NCBI RefSeq assembly: GCF_007745175.1
Contig: NZ_CP036271.1
Coordinates: 1,818,154-1,882,153 of the forward strand
DNA length: 64,000 nucleotides
From: Caulifigura coniformis
GTDB taxonomy: Bacteria; Planctomycetota; Planctomycetia; Planctomycetales; Planctomycetaceae
Direction of reading: 5' to 3'
Shown here: piece after piece, positions 16,447-21,555 of the stretch
Layout of the letters: each line of letters begins with the position of its first letter
How positions within the stretch are numbered: position 1 is the stretch's first letter
Translations under genes and position numbers: made by a program
Notes under the pieces: model-generated
The model's input: only the letters and a program-made list of their open reading frames with translations
What the model was told of the DNA's origin: nothing
Databases searched by the model: none

Positions 16447-17321
16447 CTGCTCTGCTGGCGGAAGCCTTTCAGCATCATCGCGCCATCTTCGCGAAGCGTC
16501 AGCAGCGAGGCGCCGCTGTTCTCTGGGCCCGAGCCCTCGACCATCGCCCGCAGCGTGCAGTAATGGATGCCGGCGATCTCCTTGTAGTCGTTCTTGTGGC
16601 TGTGACCCTGGAACACCGCCTGCACATTGCCCGACTGTTCGAGGAGCTTCCGCACCTCCGGGCAGTTCTTCACTCCGTGATCGTTCGAGACATCCAGCCG
16701 CTGGTGGGCAAACACGATCGTCGGCCGCTTCGCCGCCTTGAGATCCGCCTCCAGCCATTCCATCTCCGCTGGCGGGATGTTGGCGTCCTTCCACGATGAC
16801 ATCTTGCGGCCGTACGGCTTGCCATTGCTGCTGAAGCACGCATCGAGAATCACGAAGTGCCAGCCGCCGCGATCGAATGACGTGTACGACTTCTCCTGCT
16901 CGACGCCGCCCAGGAACTCTTCTTTCGTCAGCAGATCGACGCAGTGGTTTCCGAGCACATACCAGCGATCCTTGCACAGCGAGGCGAACTCCCGATTGAT
17001 CCGCTTCAGGTAGCCCAGTTCGACATCGACGCCATCCGCCGCGTCGATCAGGTCGCCCAGTTCCACGAGGAACGCCGGCGGTTCCGAAGCGAACTCTGCT
17101 CCCGCCGACGCCAGCTTGCCGAGCGTCTCGCGGTAGTAGCGAGTTCCCGCGGCCTCCTTGTCCGCGTAGTGCAGATCGGTGATGAGCCCGATCCGCAGCG
17201 GCGTCCCGGACTCCGCCGACCAGCCGGATGTCGCCGCACTTCCGAGCAGGACCAACCCGGCGCGCTGGAGAAACGCGCGGCGGCCAATCGGATGTTCGAT
17301 ACCGGAGAAATGACAAGTCAT
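16425..17321 (-). CDS. Tat-exported calcineurin-like metallophosphoesterase
   Basis: 298 aa. A twin-arginine signal (RRAFLQRAG at 14-22, then a hydrophobic stretch) predicts Tat export with the metals already bound. The phosphoesterase motifs are all present: D49xH51 (ITDLHYAD), GD90, GNH126, FAHQRLDV and GHSHKND. Substrate unknown; relatives include nucleotidases and phosphodiesterases. The start ATG lies in an ATGA overlap with the stop of the upstream gene, indicating translational coupling. It converges with and slightly overlaps the DUF542 gene. Confidence 0.9.
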   Translation of the reverse strand: MTCHFSGIEHPIGRRAFLQRAGLVLLGSAATSGWSAESGTPLRIGLITDLHYADKEAAGTRYYRETLGKLASAGAEFASEPPAFLVELGDLIDAADGVDVELGYLKRINREFASLCKDRWYVLGNHCVDLLTKEEFLGGVEQEKSYTSFDRGGWHFVILDACFSSNGKPYGRKMSSWKDANIPPAEMEWLEADLKAAKRPTIVFAHQRLDVSNDHGVKNCPEVRKLLEQSGNVQAVFQGHSHKNDYKEIAGIHYCTLRAMVEGSGPENSGASLLTLREDGAMMLKGFRQQSSYDWPRG

Positions 17322-17674
17322 GGGAGAGCCTCTGGTGGTCCTGCGTCCATGCGAATTCCGTCATTCGGCGTCATCAGCTGCCGAATGACCAGCTGCAGTT
17401 CGGCATGATTGCAGAAATAGTTGTTGATGTGACCGGGCGTCTGGAACCGAGAGACGTTGAAGCCGTCTTCAATGTCGTTGTAGTAGACACAGCTGTTCCC
17501 AACGACCGCGACGACCCAGAACCCGCCGCCCTCGTTGCCCCACGGGCTGAGTTTCCATTTCTGTGGCACGATGCGGATTGAGGTCCACCAGATCCGTTCT
17601 GCCGGTGACATCTTGCGAAGGCCAGCGTCGACCAGTGACTCAAGTTCCTCGAGGGCAATCGGTGTCCAGCCCAT
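17318..17674 (-). CDS. Conserved hypothetical protein, coupled to a phosphoesterase
   Basis: 118 aa. The sequence has no signal or membrane segment. Characteristic stretches are IALEELESLVDAGLRKMSP, WGNEGGGFWVVAVVGNSCVYYNDIEDGFNVSRF and NHAELQLVIRQL, which look like a small alpha/beta cytoplasmic domain seen in scattered bacteria, but I cannot name the family. AGGGA five bases before ATG 17674 supports this start; a TTG at 17734 would add 20 residues. The stop overlaps the phosphoesterase start (ATGA), so both are made from one mRNA. Confidence 0.65.
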   Translation of the reverse strand: MGWTPIALEELESLVDAGLRKMSPAERIWWTSIRIVPQKWKLSPWGNEGGGFWVVAVVGNSCVYYNDIEDGFNVSRFQTPGHINNYFCNHAELQLVIRQLMTPNDGIRMDAGPPEALP

Positions 17675-17840
17675 TACTTCCCTATCGAGCGTCGCCGTGG
17701 AGTTCTCGTTCCACGCCGCTACACGGAACTCCAAATGGCTCTACCATCGAAACAGTCACACGCCAAACTGCCTGCGTCAACCTTGCCGAACCGGGTCGCA
17801 ACGAAAGCGGCCGACCGTCCTGATGGAGAGGAATCCCGCC

Positions 17841-18335
17841 ATGTCTACCGATGCCATCTTTCGCAGTTCGCTCTCGACTCTCCTGGTCGAGATTTTCGAT
17901 GGACCACCAGGGGCCGAGGCCTTCATTCTCAACCCGAAAGATCCGGGCCTGGCCCGACAGATGGAATCGATCTCGGCCGAGACCGCCTCGACGCGCCCCA
18001 TGCCGGGCCAGACGACCATCGCCGCCCATCTCGACCACGTCCTCTACGGCCTGACTCTTCTCAACCGCTGGGCCGACGGCGAGGAGAACCCCTGGGCGAC
18101 CGCCGACTGGTCGGCGAGCTGGAAGCGGACCGTCGTGAACGAGGCGCAATGGAAAGACCTGTGCGGCCGGTTCCGGGACGGAGCGGCCCGGTGGAAGAAG
18201 ACGGTCGCCACACGAACCGACTGGAATCCTCTGACGGCCTGCGGAGCAATCGCCAGCTGCGCCCATACCGCATACCACCTCGGCGCGATCCGGCAGATCC
18301 TCGCGGCCATGAACGCGAATACCGCTCCAACGTAG
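17841..18335 (+). CDS. DinB-like four-helix protein
   Basis: 164 aa. Features of the DinB/YfiT superfamily include TIAAHLDHVLYGLTLLNRW in the first half and CAHTAYHLGAIRQILAAM at the end, which supply metal-binding histidines of this helical fold. Members include thiol-dependent transferases and damage-induced proteins; the substrate here is unknown. ATG 17841 is preceded by GGAGAGG. Monocistronic and divergent from the 118-aa protein gene. Only the fold is assigned. Confidence 0.75.
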   Translation: MSTDAIFRSSLSTLLVEIFDGPPGAEAFILNPKDPGLARQMESISAETASTRPMPGQTTIAAHLDHVLYGLTLLNRWADGEENPWATADWSASWKRTVVNEAQWKDLCGRFRDGAARWKKTVATRTDWNPLTACGAIASCAHTAYHLGAIRQILAAMNANTAPT

Positions 18336-18370
18336 TCGTACCGCCCTCCGCCCCCGGGCAATCCGCGCCG

Positions 18371-18628
18371 TCAGCGGTAGAGGTCGCCACGATGCGCATA
18401 TGCGTCGAAAGCGTCCAGCAGGCCGACCGGCGCATCGTCCGGCCGCGTGAAGACGCGTGTGCACGAGTTGCATCGATAACGGTACGGTTCGTACTGCAGC
18501 GGAGCATGCTGGATGTCGCCACTGTGGCAATGCACACACTGCGGCAGGCAGGCCGCGAGCGCGGAGTACGCCGCCAGGCAGGCAAAGGCGGTGATCGGCA
18601 GCATCAGCCCTGACAGAACTCGTTTCAC
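18371..18628 (-). CDS. Small exported Cys-rich protein, possible zinc ribbon
   Basis: 85 aa. An N-terminal hydrophobic segment (VLSGLMLPITAFACLAAYSALA) serves as signal or anchor, followed by CVHC and, about 20 residues on, CNSC, a four-cysteine set suitable for one zinc. The CVHCHSG part also resembles heme attachment, but it is not a clean c-type site because CxxCH overlaps another His. GTG start at 18628 is chosen since it begins just before the signal segment; longer starts give unnatural N-termini. Function unknown. Confidence 0.5.
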   Translation of the reverse strand: MKRVLSGLMLPITAFACLAAYSALAACLPQCVHCHSGDIQHAPLQYEPYRYRCNSCTRVFTRPDDAPVGLLDAFDAYAHRGDLYR

Positions 18629-18965
18629 GTGTGGCCCCCACGCTTCCGGATCCGACGCCAGCCAAACAAACGCACGGCAATGGCAACCTGAATTTAACCG
18701 CGAGCTGGCGCGTTTGCACCGCCAAATTCCGGCGGGCAATCAGGCCTCATAACACTGGAGCCACGCTCGCCGCGGGCCTGTGCTCGTCCCGTCCGCAGCC
18801 AGCGTCAGTCCACGGCGCTGAACCGAACGTCATTCCCCTCCAGGGAGGCCGTGAGACGTTGTCGTTCACCGGGAGCCAGACGCGCGAACCGGATCACCGG
18901 ACGCAGCGCGGGAACGCCGGCAGCCTTCCCGCGCTGCCATTTCGACCAACGAATCGACGCTCGCC
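18629..18965. other. Intergenic region upstream of the ArsR-VOC operon
   Basis: About 340 bases without a convincing gene. Reading the minus strand near 18805-18890 gives a short tail resembling a real C-terminus, but no start or body belongs to it. Composition is ordinary. Confidence 0.35.
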
Positions 18966-18995
18966 TTGACAGGCAAGTCACCACTTGCCTATCGT
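18966..18995 (+). promoter_or_regulatory. ArsR-VOC promoter with perfect operator between -35 and -10
   Basis: A consensus -35 TTGACA (18966-18971) and -10 TATCGT (18990-18995) are 18 bases apart. A perfect inverted repeat, AGGCAAGT (18971-18978) and ACTTGCCT (18983-18990) with a CACC spacer, fills exactly the space between them. This is the expected position for an autorepressor. The predicted transcript start coincides with the GTG at 19003. Confidence 0.75.
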
Positions 18996-19002
18996 AAGCC
19001 TT

Positions 19003-19293
19003 GTGGCTGATCTGTTTGAAGCCCTGGTCGCTCCGGCACGACGCGCAATTCTCGACGAGTTGTGCGAGCGCGATGGGCAGACCCTGTTCGAGATCTGTGC
19101 TCGACTGGCAATGAAGCATGGGCTCAATCACACCCGCCAGGCCATCTCCCAGCACCTCGATGTGCTCGAAGCTGCCGGCCTGATCAGCACACGCCGTGAA
19201 GGGCGGTACAAGTTTCACGACCTCAACAAGGCTCCATTGAGCGCCATCGTCGATCGATGGCTCAAACCAGGCCGGAAAGGCGAAGGCTCATGA
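19003..19293 (+). CDS. ArsR-family winged-helix repressor
   Basis: 96 aa. The winged helix runs from LFEALVAPARRAILDELCERDGQTLFEICARL through NHTRQAISQHLDVLEAAGLI (recognition helix) to the wing STRREGRYKFHDLN and a closing PLSAIVDRWL. It has no metal-binding cysteine set, so it belongs to the non-metal SdpR/AHSA-linked ArsR subgroup. GTG 19003 falls at the predicted transcript start, implying a leaderless mRNA; a TTG at 18985 would lie inside the operator. The stop overlaps the VOC start in ATGA. Autorepression through the 18971-18990 palindrome is likely. Confidence 0.88.
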   Translation: MADLFEALVAPARRAILDELCERDGQTLFEICARLAMKHGLNHTRQAISQHLDVLEAAGLISTRREGRYKFHDLNKAPLSAIVDRWLKPGRKGEGS

Positions 19294-19673
19294 AAATCGT
19301 TGTCACCAGCGTCCTCGTTGACGACCAGGAAAAGGCCCTCCGGTTCTACACCGAGAAACTCGGCTTCGTCAAAAAGCACGACGTCCCTATGGGCGAGTTC
19401 CGGTGGCTGACTCTCGTCTCGCCTGAGAACGCGGAGGGGACCGAGCTTCTGCTCGAGCCCGACCAGCACCCGGCCGCGCGGCCGTTCAAGCAGGCCCTCG
19501 TCGAAGACGGAATTCCCTACACCTCCTTCGGCGTCGCCAATATCCAGGCCGAATACGATCGCCTCTGTGCGGCCGGCGTGCAGTTCACGCAGCCGCCGGT
19601 GGCGATGGGCCCGGTCACCACCGCGGTCTTCGATGACACCTGCGGAAACCTGATCCAGATCGCGCAGCAGTAG
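19290..19673 (+). CDS. VOC-superfamily (glyoxalase/bleomycin-resistance-like) protein
   Basis: 127 aa, one VOC module of two beta-alpha-beta units: KIVVTSVLVDDQEKALRFYTEKLGF and a second half with IPYTSFGVANIQAEYDRL, ending VFDDTCGNLIQIAQ, where D and E/Q positions serve as metal ligands. It is translated in an ATGA overlap with the ArsR gene, an arrangement found in several phyla. The substrate may be an electrophile or drug sensed indirectly by the ArsR protein; this is inferred. Confidence 0.88.
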   Translation: MKIVVTSVLVDDQEKALRFYTEKLGFVKKHDVPMGEFRWLTLVSPENAEGTELLLEPDQHPAARPFKQALVEDGIPYTSFGVANIQAEYDRLCAAGVQFTQPPVAMGPVTTAVFDDTCGNLIQIAQQ

Positions 19674-19777
19674 CCTCGCTTCACACCCGGGTGGGGAATC
19701 CTCATGGTCGACGCCGCCTGCATCGATCAATGCAGCCGCTGGCAGCGTCTGCCATGGGTGACATGCCAGCTTGTTAT

Positions 19778-20173
19778 TCAGTTAGGCCAAGCCGCGTTCT
19801 GCAGAACGATGCGATAGCCGTCCGGGTCTTCGAACGTCTTGCCCAGGCGATCCCAGTAAGGGTTGAACGAGGCGACGGCAGTATGCCCCGCGGCCTCCAG
19901 CCGCGCGACCGCCGTCGCCCAGGCGGCGTGATCGGGAAGATAGAACACCAGCAGGTTGTCTTCCGTCGGCGCCCGGCCAGCACGATGTCCGGCCCTGCGG
20001 GTGAACTCCAGATGCCAGTTCGCCCCCTGAACTCCCAGCATCACGCCGTCGAAACCGGCATGATTCTCGAATGCGCCCAGAACCTCCATTCCCAGGCCAT
20101 CACGATAGAACGCGACGACCGGCTCGAGGTCATCGGTGGGCCGGGCGATGCGGAGCGCGCCGTACGCAGACAT
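19778..20173 (-). CDS. VOC-superfamily protein, second copy
   Basis: 131 aa. It begins LRIARPTDDLEPVVAFYRDGLGMEVLGAF and ends FEDPDGYRIVLQN, the classic first and last strands of a single VOC module. It differs strongly from the VOC protein encoded at 19290-19673, so it is not a recent duplicate. ATG 20173 is preferred to a start ten codons earlier. No operon partner. Substrate unknown. Confidence 0.85.
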   Translation of the reverse strand: MSAYGALRIARPTDDLEPVVAFYRDGLGMEVLGAFENHAGFDGVMLGVQGANWHLEFTRRAGHRAGRAPTEDNLLVFYLPDHAAWATAVARLEAAGHTAVASFNPYWDRLGKTFEDPDGYRIVLQNAAWPN

Positions 20174-20530
20174 GCGTGAACCTGATGAACCGGGAGTTTG
20201 CAACCTTCCTCACACCTTCGGGTGCACAGTGAAGGTTCTCAATCGGAACGAGTTCAGACAACTTTCAGGAGGAAGCCGCTCCCCTGCAATTCGACAGAGG
20301 GACTACTCTCCCGGATTCCGCGCCAAATGCGTTCCCCTGAGGTTCCCTTCACCTCTCGAGCCTTTTCTGCGAGGCGAGGAGTTGCGGCTCTCGAGAAACC
20401 AGGGAAAACCCGGCCCGGGAGGTTGACCCGGGTGCGTCCATCCGAGAATCAGGACGTCAGGCTTCGTGCTCTGCGGGCGCGGCGAGTGCTCCCCACGAAG
20501 TCTTTGGAAACGGACCGATGGAAGGAATTG
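20174..20530. other. Divergent intergenic region with hairpins
   Basis: No gene recognised. It contains AACCTTC (20202-20208) and GAAGGTT (20231-20237), which enclose an ACC-TTCG-GGT tetraloop hairpin, and CCCGGG repeated at 20414-20419 and 20427-20432. Either may be regulatory; neither has a U-tract. Confidence 0.4.
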
Positions 20531-20938
20531 ATGTCTCTTCGCAAATTGACGCTCCCGCTGTTCGCCCTCCTGACGATGGCCTTCGCGACCCCGGCCGAAG
20601 CCAGGCCGATCTACAGCGCCCCCATGCCGGTTCCGCTTCCGGGAATTGCCGCCGATGGGACGCTCGATTTCGAAACGCTGGGCAGCGAGGGGGTGGGCGT
20701 TTATTCCGTCTCCCTCACACGCAAAGGCGTCATCTTTGAAATCGAAGCGACGGGCATCGTCGCAAACCTGACGGGAAAGAAGTTCACCTCCAAGGATTAC
20801 CTCGACTTCATGGGCGGTTCCGAGGTTCCCCCGGAACCGGGAGAGATGGACATCAAGAAGTTCAAATACACCGTCACCAAGAACGGGAAGGCGACGCTGA
20901 AGGCGTCCTTCACGACTGACGTGTTCCCGATGCCCTGA
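20531..20938 (+). CDS. Small secreted protein, unknown
   Basis: 135 aa. A signal peptide (KLTLPLFALLTMAFATPAEA) is followed by an Ala/Pro-rich start and a beta-rich domain: GVGVYSVSLTRKGVIFEIEATGIV, KFKYTVTKNGKATLKASF. GGAA lies four bases before ATG 20531, which fits the signal peptide; the upstream extension to 20198 is not natural. A strong hairpin follows the gene. Probably periplasmic or surface-located; no family recognised. Confidence 0.65.
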   Translation: MSLRKLTLPLFALLTMAFATPAEARPIYSAPMPVPLPGIAADGTLDFETLGSEGVGVYSVSLTRKGVIFEIEATGIVANLTGKKFTSKDYLDFMGGSEVPPEPGEMDIKKFKYTVTKNGKATLKASFTTDVFPMP

Positions 20939-20965
20939 AGCAGCCATTTGAGACGGTGAAATCCA

Positions 20966-21000
20966 GAAAGGCGTGAGGCCCGTTGAGCCTCACGCCTTTC
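20966..21000 (+). terminator. Strong hairpin, probable terminator
   Basis: GAAAGGCGTGAGGC (20966-20979) and its exact complement (20987-21000) form a 14-bp stem with a seven-base loop, 28 bases after a stop codon. The 3' side ends in UUUC then UUC, a short U-run. Confidence 0.7.
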
Positions 21001-21105
21001 TTCATGTCCTGGCCGATCATCTCCGGCCGCCGCGCGATAACGCGGTCGATGATCCGGGCAGCACCAGCAGCCGCGGGGCCGTGTCCGCATCGCGGGCGAC
21101 CGTAA

Positions 21106-21555
21106 TTACGTCTCCAGTTTGAAGTCGAACACGTTCTCGCCCGGCTTCACATCCGCCTGCAGTTCCGACTTCGTGTTGTAGCGGGCCGGAATCTTTGGCT
21201 TCGAAGGCTTCACCGCTTTCCGCTGCGGCGCATTCTCCTCACTCTGGGCGTCGTCCGCGTCATCTTCTCCTTCACTCGGGGCAATCTCGACGCGATTCTT
21301 CCCGAGCTTGGTGCCTCGCGTCTCGCGAACGTAGATCAGGTCGTACGTGCCGTCGGCCGTCGTCGTGGCCTTGGCCGGGCGACCATTCTCGGGAAAGAAA
21401 ACGACAGCCATGCCAGCGAGCGGCTGGCCGTCCAGCGTGATTGTTCCCTTCACCTGGCCCAGGTCTGGCTGGTCGCTGACACCGCCGCACCCGGTCAGAT
21501 TCAGGGTCAGAATGGCCACCGTGACTGTGAGAAAACTCTGCTGCACCAGTTTCAC
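21106..21555 (-). CDS. Lipoprotein with transthyretin/carboxypeptidase-regulatory-like fold (cassette B)
   Basis: 149 aa. A lipobox-like LTGCGG follows a hydrophobic signal. Next comes a beta-sandwich stretch, GTITLDGQPLAGMAVVFFPENGRPAKATTTADGTYDLIYVRETRGTKLGKNRVEI, typical of planctomycete transthyretin-like (TTL) lipoproteins. A charged linker is followed by IPARYNTKSEL and NVFDFKLE, which these proteins share. GTG 21555 is chosen because AGGCAGGA precedes it; a TTG at 21576 is the alternative. It lies downstream of a DUF1559 gene with a hairpin between them and is a paralogue of the lipoprotein at 23120-23572. Confidence 0.82.
   Translation of the reverse strand: MKLVQQSFLTVTVAILTLNLTGCGGVSDQPDLGQVKGTITLDGQPLAGMAVVFFPENGRPAKATTTADGTYDLIYVRETRGTKLGKNRVEIAPSEGEDDADDAQSEENAPQRKAVKPSKPKIPARYNTKSELQADVKPGENVFDFKLET

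Follow-up and report, generated by a model that had tools for sequence, protein, structure and literature searches.

A putative ArsR operator filling the promoter spacer of an arsR-VOC operon in Caulifigura coniformis, with a probably leaderless start and a candidate residue-to-base recognition pattern

The stretch of Caulifigura coniformis DNA analysed here (the window, 64,000 nucleotides) very probably contains the promoter-operator of an autorepressed two-gene arsR-VOC operon, with a leaderless arsR message and a VOC-family gene that is coupled to arsR at a shared ATGA. A dimer of the ArsR protein would bind a 20-bp palindrome, one recognition helix per GCAAG half-site; the bound protein would cover the spacer between the −35 and −10 hexamers, keeping RNA polymerase away. 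When some signal, the existence of which we infer, releases the repressor, transcription would begin on the GTG start codon or one base before it. The resulting arsR message would be leaderless, and the VOC gene would be translated by coupling at the ATGA. The ingredients have precedents: autorepressing ArsR genes and leaderless genes are both known kinds, and operators sited between −35 and −10 are a known kind of arrangement. The features concerned are as follows.

18966..18971, + strand: −35 hexamer TTGACA, 6/6 to consensus
18971..18990, + strand: putative operator AGGCAAGT-CACC-ACTTGCCT, a perfect 8-4-8 inverted repeat, read from the sequence
18972-18989, + strand: promoter spacer GGCAAGTCACCACTTGCC, 18 bp, read from the sequence
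18973-18988, + strand: conserved operator core GCAAGY-N4-RCTTGC, kept in 81 loci
18990..18995, + strand: −10 hexamer TATCGT, 4/6 to consensus
18996..19002, + strand: stretch of 7 nt from the −10 to the start codon, with the expected +1 at about 19002-19003
19003..19293, + strand: arsR-type regulator gene, GTG start, 96 aa, Pfam HTH_20 and HTH_5 above cut-off
19290..19673, + strand: VOC-family protein gene, Pfam PF00903 (E 6e-18), 4-bp overlap with arsR

Direct reading of the promoter-operator region, cgccTTGACAGGCAAGTCACCACTTGCCTATCGTaagccttGTGgctgat, places TTGACA, the palindrome, TATCGT and the GTG where the initial annotation had put them. That annotation described the palindrome as lying exactly between the two hexamers; that wording is off by one base at each side. 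The inverted repeat spans 20 bp (18971-18990; arms of 8 bp, gap of 4 bp) in a spacer of 18 bp, and thus extends one base into the −35 on its left and one base into the −10 on its right. In a consensus scan of positions 17000-21500, the arsR promoter is the sole sigma-70-like site; since shuffled sequences average 0.6 such sites, the hexamers taken by themselves could be a chance occurrence. When up to three mismatches are allowed, the palindrome occurs once in the 64-kb window against 0.14 expected. The genome-wide search that had been proposed as a check finds one exact copy in 6.76 Mb, ahead of arsR, while with up to two mismatches there are two places versus four for a reversed control. That the arrangement is unlikely to be a product of chance is best shown by its conservation.

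A set of 81 loci was compared, consisting of the window and the best 80 of 187 confirmed places from one protein scan of genome contigs. The 80 comprise 70 from Actinomycetota, six from Planctomycetota, three from Chloroflexota and one from Gemmatimonadota; being the best-matching part of the 187, the set is biased towards Actinomycetota and holds near copies. A near-identical block of about 30 bp, TTGACA-[GT]GCAAGYN4RCTTGC[CA]-TANNNT, precedes arsR in these 81 loci. The inverted repeat is found upstream in every one of them, as CAAG-N6-CTTG in 80 and as TAAG-N6-CTTA in L092, the half-site of which is GTAAG. TTGACA is exact in 51 of the 81 and matches at five or more of its six positions in 79, and the −10 reads TANNNT in 78. 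Column by column, the information begins with TTGACA and ends after TANNNT: the half-sites carry 1-2 bits per column and the four loop bases about 0.25 bit, while upstream of the −35 the adjoining column holds 0.5 bit and those from the second base outwards 0.04-0.3 bit. The gene pair is conserved as well; all 81 loci have a VOC relative no more than 1.8 kb from the start of arsR, and the two genes share a 4-bp overlap in 42. Autorepression through an operator in the spacer, as originally proposed, thereby gains comparative support, the operator being present at all 81 loci. At one locus, that of Saccharopolyspora subtropica (L058, from about 2001), the frame of arsR stays open for 200 codons and also contains the VOC match, so that the two genes may form a fusion.

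The same comparison bears on the start of translation. In the window, the GTG at 19003-19005 lies 7 nt past the last base of the −10, and in 79 of the 81 loci this distance is 5 to 8 nt (5 nt in two, 6 in 27, 7 in 43 and 8 in seven), although the base composition of the intervening stretch is little conserved. The start codon is GTG in 69 loci, ATG in 11 and TTG in one. A Shine-Dalgarno-like tetramer (GGAG, GAGG, AGGA or AAGG) stands between −20 and −4 in a single locus. The sequence features expected of a leaderless gene, namely a +1 on the start codon and no Shine-Dalgarno sequence, are therefore found throughout nearly the whole set. It is this conserved spacing from −10 to start that brings the +1 to the start codon, so that the leaderless reading is backed by the family as a whole rather than by a single sequence; the arsR message probably starts directly at its start codon, in line with the original prediction of a leaderless GTG. 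Leaderlessness would be a property of this near family, not a universal one, since two Phycisphaerae loci (L026 and L053) have their start codons 32 and 33 nt past the −10, and in the more distant Planctomycetota members L096, L097, L098 and L099 the start, measured from the −35's first base, comes after 62, 45, 49 and more than 200 nt, respectively, versus 37 in the window.

The regulator itself belongs to the ArsR/SmtB-type winged helix-turn-helix proteins, with scores of 33.3 bits for Pfam HTH_20 (cut-off 27) and 26.8 bits for HTH_5 (cut-off 22); its top Foldseek matches are ArsR-type regulators. In the AlphaFold2 model (mean pLDDT 89, from a 44-row alignment), the recognition helix comprises residues 45-57 and carries Q46, A47 and Q50. 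Metal sensors of the ArsR/SmtB family are recognised by a paired-Cys metal box. With 53.8 bits, the protein scores just below the cut-off of 55 for the metal-sensor model NF033788; of its cysteines, C32 is kept in 76 of 81 loci and C21 is not conserved.

How such a helix might select its half-site can be gauged by comparing related regulators. For each related ArsR gene in the loci retrieved, the best upstream 5-6-5 palindrome was chosen by a letter-blind rule and tabulated against the helix. A palindrome was found for 146 of 153 distinct regulators (none by this rule for the other seven), with a −35-like hexamer in fixed register in 128. Within these 128, residue 45 and base 1 are R-G throughout. 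Residue 46 pairs with base 2 as Q-C in 110, F-T in 10, Y-T in four, and I-T, V-A, Q-T and Q-A in one each; residue 47 with base 4 as A-A in 101, G-A in 14, S-G in 11, and S-A and G-C in one each; and residue 50 with base 5 as Q-G in 85, K-C in 41, and R-C and K-G in one each. Helix classes accordingly have their own half-sites: GCAAG for RQA..Q, GCAAC for RQA..K, GCAGC for RQS..K, GTGAC for RFG, RYG or RFA..K, and GCAGG for RQS..Q in five of six cases, the exception being L098, a counterexample in which S47 occurs with GCAAG and thus with A at base 4. The one K-G case, L118, also has a GCAACC palindrome with a poorer −35; it was scored K-G because the rule chose another palindrome.

Two follow-up checks were run once the pairings of residues 47 and 50 had been set down as a rule. 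The first searched 37 genomes by pattern and yielded 48 sites, compared with one for the reversed control. Of the 48, 13 are not symmetric GCAAG sites; the 11 inspected all precede an ArsR gene, with seven symmetric GCAGC sites all belonging to RQS..K helices, one symmetric GCAAC site to RQA..K, and three imperfect sites to RQS..K. The other check concerned plasmids and covered 17 of the 39 records that hold a relative. Three are GCAAG-class cassettes, all RQA..Q; among the 14 others, two are without a palindrome and 12 have one, and these 12 all fit. They include RQS..Q with GCAGG in Alphaproteobacteria, RQG..Q with GCAAG in a Betaproteobacterium, RQA..K with GCAAC in Bacillota, and RQG..K with GCAAC, next to a VOC gene, in the archaeon Haladaptatus. 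Overall, the 161 regulators with a palindrome divide into 98 Q-G, 57 K-C, one R-C, one K-G and four (L102, L213, L227 and L237) with an unrelated top palindrome. Residue 50 thus tracks base 5 in 156 of the 157 whose top-ranked palindrome starts with G; residue 47 tracks base 4, with exceptions.

Shared ancestry was considered with three trees, in which the GCAAG class is represented by a sample. Residue 50 changed four, five and four times, with the same numbers of changes at base 5. Among independent pairs whose branches are well supported, two of two, three of three and two of two were concordant; with only two or three such pairs per tree, a sign test has no chance of becoming significant. 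Between residue 47 and base 4, the second tree gave two supported pairs alike and one without change, and the third tree one alike and one without change. Operators were assigned by hand for six rows in the first tree, three in the second and none in the third (five rows omitted). The residue-base pattern is therefore to be taken as a strong lead, not as proof. We lean towards a modular code that would predict half-sites from the helix, in which R45 would specify G1; residue 46 bases 2-3 (Q for CA, F or Y for TG, I for TA and V for AA, the I and V entries coming from one regulator each); residue 47 base 4 (A or G for A, S for G); and residue 50 base 5 (Q for G, K or R for C). The same proposal treats the cassette as a self-contained, transferable and leaderless unit found in several phyla, with an archaeal arsR-VOC relative that would follow the code.

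The C. coniformis genome holds an instance of another class outside the window.

C1:2837585-2837827, − strand: second ArsR cassette of the same genome (L015), operator GCAACC-N4-GGTTGC in the spacer

Its promoter reads TTGACA-TGCAACCAAATGGTTGCA-TAAT, with a GTG at offset 34 from the −35. Both cassettes thus have TTGACA, an operator filling the spacer and a GTG at leaderless distance; the second differs in its GCAACC half-site, in having K at the position of residue 50, and in that its arsR is followed by an AHSA1/SRPBCC gene rather than a VOC gene. It shows that the spacer-operator design is reusable. Across 12 distinct loci of the GCAAC class with TTGACA (L006-L011, L014, L015, L101, L103, L105 and L117), an in-frame start lies at offset 34-36 in 11 and at 49 in L009. 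A different layout is seen in most members of the RQS..K class, where palindromes come in pairs, the first occupying the spacer and its tandem partner following the −10 (L222-L228, L208, L213, L214, L270, L271 and L282); the start codon is at about offset 65-80 from the −35, which is not a leaderless layout. L219, of the same class, has a single site and a GTG at 38.

Within Planctomycetota the cassette is sparse. An ArsR match at E 1e-15 occurs in 14 of 392 genomes, weaker paralogues included, and the promoter-operator pattern, with one mismatch allowed, gives eight sites in seven of the 392 versus one in the reversed control. Six of the eight sites precede arsR, one of them by about 200 nt. 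In the tree of the 81 ArsR proteins, the window groups with four Planctomycetota rows and one Gemmatimonadota row, the forks being without strong support; horizontal transfer of the cassette is likely. Two plasmid-borne pairs were also observed: in Deinococcus sp. QL22, an arsR-VOC cassette with the same promoter layout and a 6-nt gap, its plasmid being typed as mobilizable (L268:1160-1883), and in the archaeon Haladaptatus salinisoli, an ArsR-VOC pair just upstream of which lies a GCAACC palindrome (L281:686-1409). In 40 of the genomes of the 80 loci, GCAAGYN4RCTTGC occurs one to three times per genome, and as a single site in 25. As these 59 places compare with 148 in the reversed control, sites beyond arsR are no evidence of a regulon.

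Set against these data, the alternatives differ in weight. The operator and autorepression could be right and the message could nevertheless carry a leader, by way of an upstream promoter or of translation from the TTG at 18985, which shares the frame of the GTG at 19003 and is not separated from it by a stop codon, so that a longer reading frame is formally open; the longer promoter-to-start distances of some relatives point the same way. This TTG, however, lies inside the operator and 5′ of the predicted +1, in 17 of the 81 loci the frame offers no alternative start codon between the preceding stop and the assigned one, and the poor conservation upstream of the −35, together with the near absence of Shine-Dalgarno-like tetramers, also argues for the leaderless start; a leader is accordingly an unlikely variant. 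The modest 4/6 match of the −10 counts against the preferred reading.

Considerably less probable is that another regulator binds the palindrome and ArsR acts elsewhere. The two remaining Planctomycetota sites of the pattern search (L108 and L115, at about 1500-2150 on the + strand) present the same promoter-operator ahead of a VOC-like gene and not of arsR, and one of the two genomes, G159, has no arsR match at E 1e-15. The VOC-like protein of these loci has a hydrophobic N-terminal stretch and may be exported (the one scanned scores 17.7 bits for Pfam Glyoxalase, below the cut-off of 20.6); the genes may be targets in trans. What counts against another regulator is that half-site and ArsR recognition helix change together in relatives. 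As for a chance or structural feature such as a terminator or hairpin, perfect inverted repeats do occur in terminators too, yet no T run follows this palindrome, a terminator scan has no entry there, and across the 81 loci the repeat keeps its register relative to the two hexamers while its loop varies, which leaves that idea with hardly any probability. Binding and repression by the ArsR protein itself remain the preferred reading.

The arsR stop and the VOC start share the ATGA at 19290-19293. The initial annotation had spoken of an ATGA-coupled VOC enzyme; gene and overlap are confirmed, while the word enzyme is unproven. The protein is a member of the VOC superfamily (PF00903, Glyoxalase/bleomycin-resistance domain, 65.8 bits, cut-off 20.6), but with 22 bits for TIGR00068 it falls far under the cut-off of 120 for glyoxalase I (lactoylglutathione lyase). 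Numbered from the second residue, E55 is conserved in 81 of 81 loci and Q122 in 79, and these two may be counterparts of the glyoxalase I metal ligands, a mapping to which no claim of catalysis is attached. The closest solved relative is the VOC protein of PDB 4g6x (E 4e-48), known here by its depositors' family name only. Two further genes were noted in the surroundings: a second VOC gene of a YycE-like type at 19778-20173 (− strand), converging on the operon, and upstream a gene for a DinB_2-like protein, exactly at the Pfam cut-off, at 17841-18335 (+ strand).

If the proposed reading is right, the locus offers a clean natural case of a repressor site that fills the promoter spacer, and the recurrence of this fixed frame across phyla makes leaderless translation in Planctomycetota testable on a single defined gene. 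The residue-base pattern would allow operators to be predicted, and swaps to be planned, for ArsR regulators that bear a family name only. No description of the arsR-VOC operon, its operator or the residue-base pattern was found among the open-access papers listed in literature searches; passages of PMC4301838 and PMC2784483 hold nothing specific. A comparison of genes that lack Shine-Dalgarno sequences reports that species of several phyla, Planctomycetes among them, tend towards signals of leaderless mRNAs and/or RPS1 use, with one planctomycete genome included (PMC5397173).

Two ArsR-SmtB proteins, NolR and RexT, share the winged helix-turn-helix fold of the window's ArsR, and a DNA-bound structure exists for NolR. 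Their sites differ from that of the window, the NolR consensus being (A/T)TTAG-N9-A(T/A). The base contacts of NolR are made mostly by helix α4 in the major groove (PMC8960804); in an alignment, NolR Gln56 falls at R45 of the window's protein and NolR Gln61 at Q50. A closer parallel is Rv2034 of Mycobacterium tuberculosis, an ArsR autorepressor with a footprinted site, CCGTAAGT-CTAA-ACTTACGG (arms of 8 bp, gap of 4 bp), and with DNA binding that is uninhibited by zinc and four other metals (PMC3338718). The terms 'leaderless' and 'transcription start' are absent from the main text of that paper. The Rv2034 half-site is GTAAG where the window has GCAAG, and its protection from −30 to +3 of the start codon puts the site nearer to the start than in the window; like the window's, it is an 8-4-8 palindrome just upstream of the start codon (PMC3338718).
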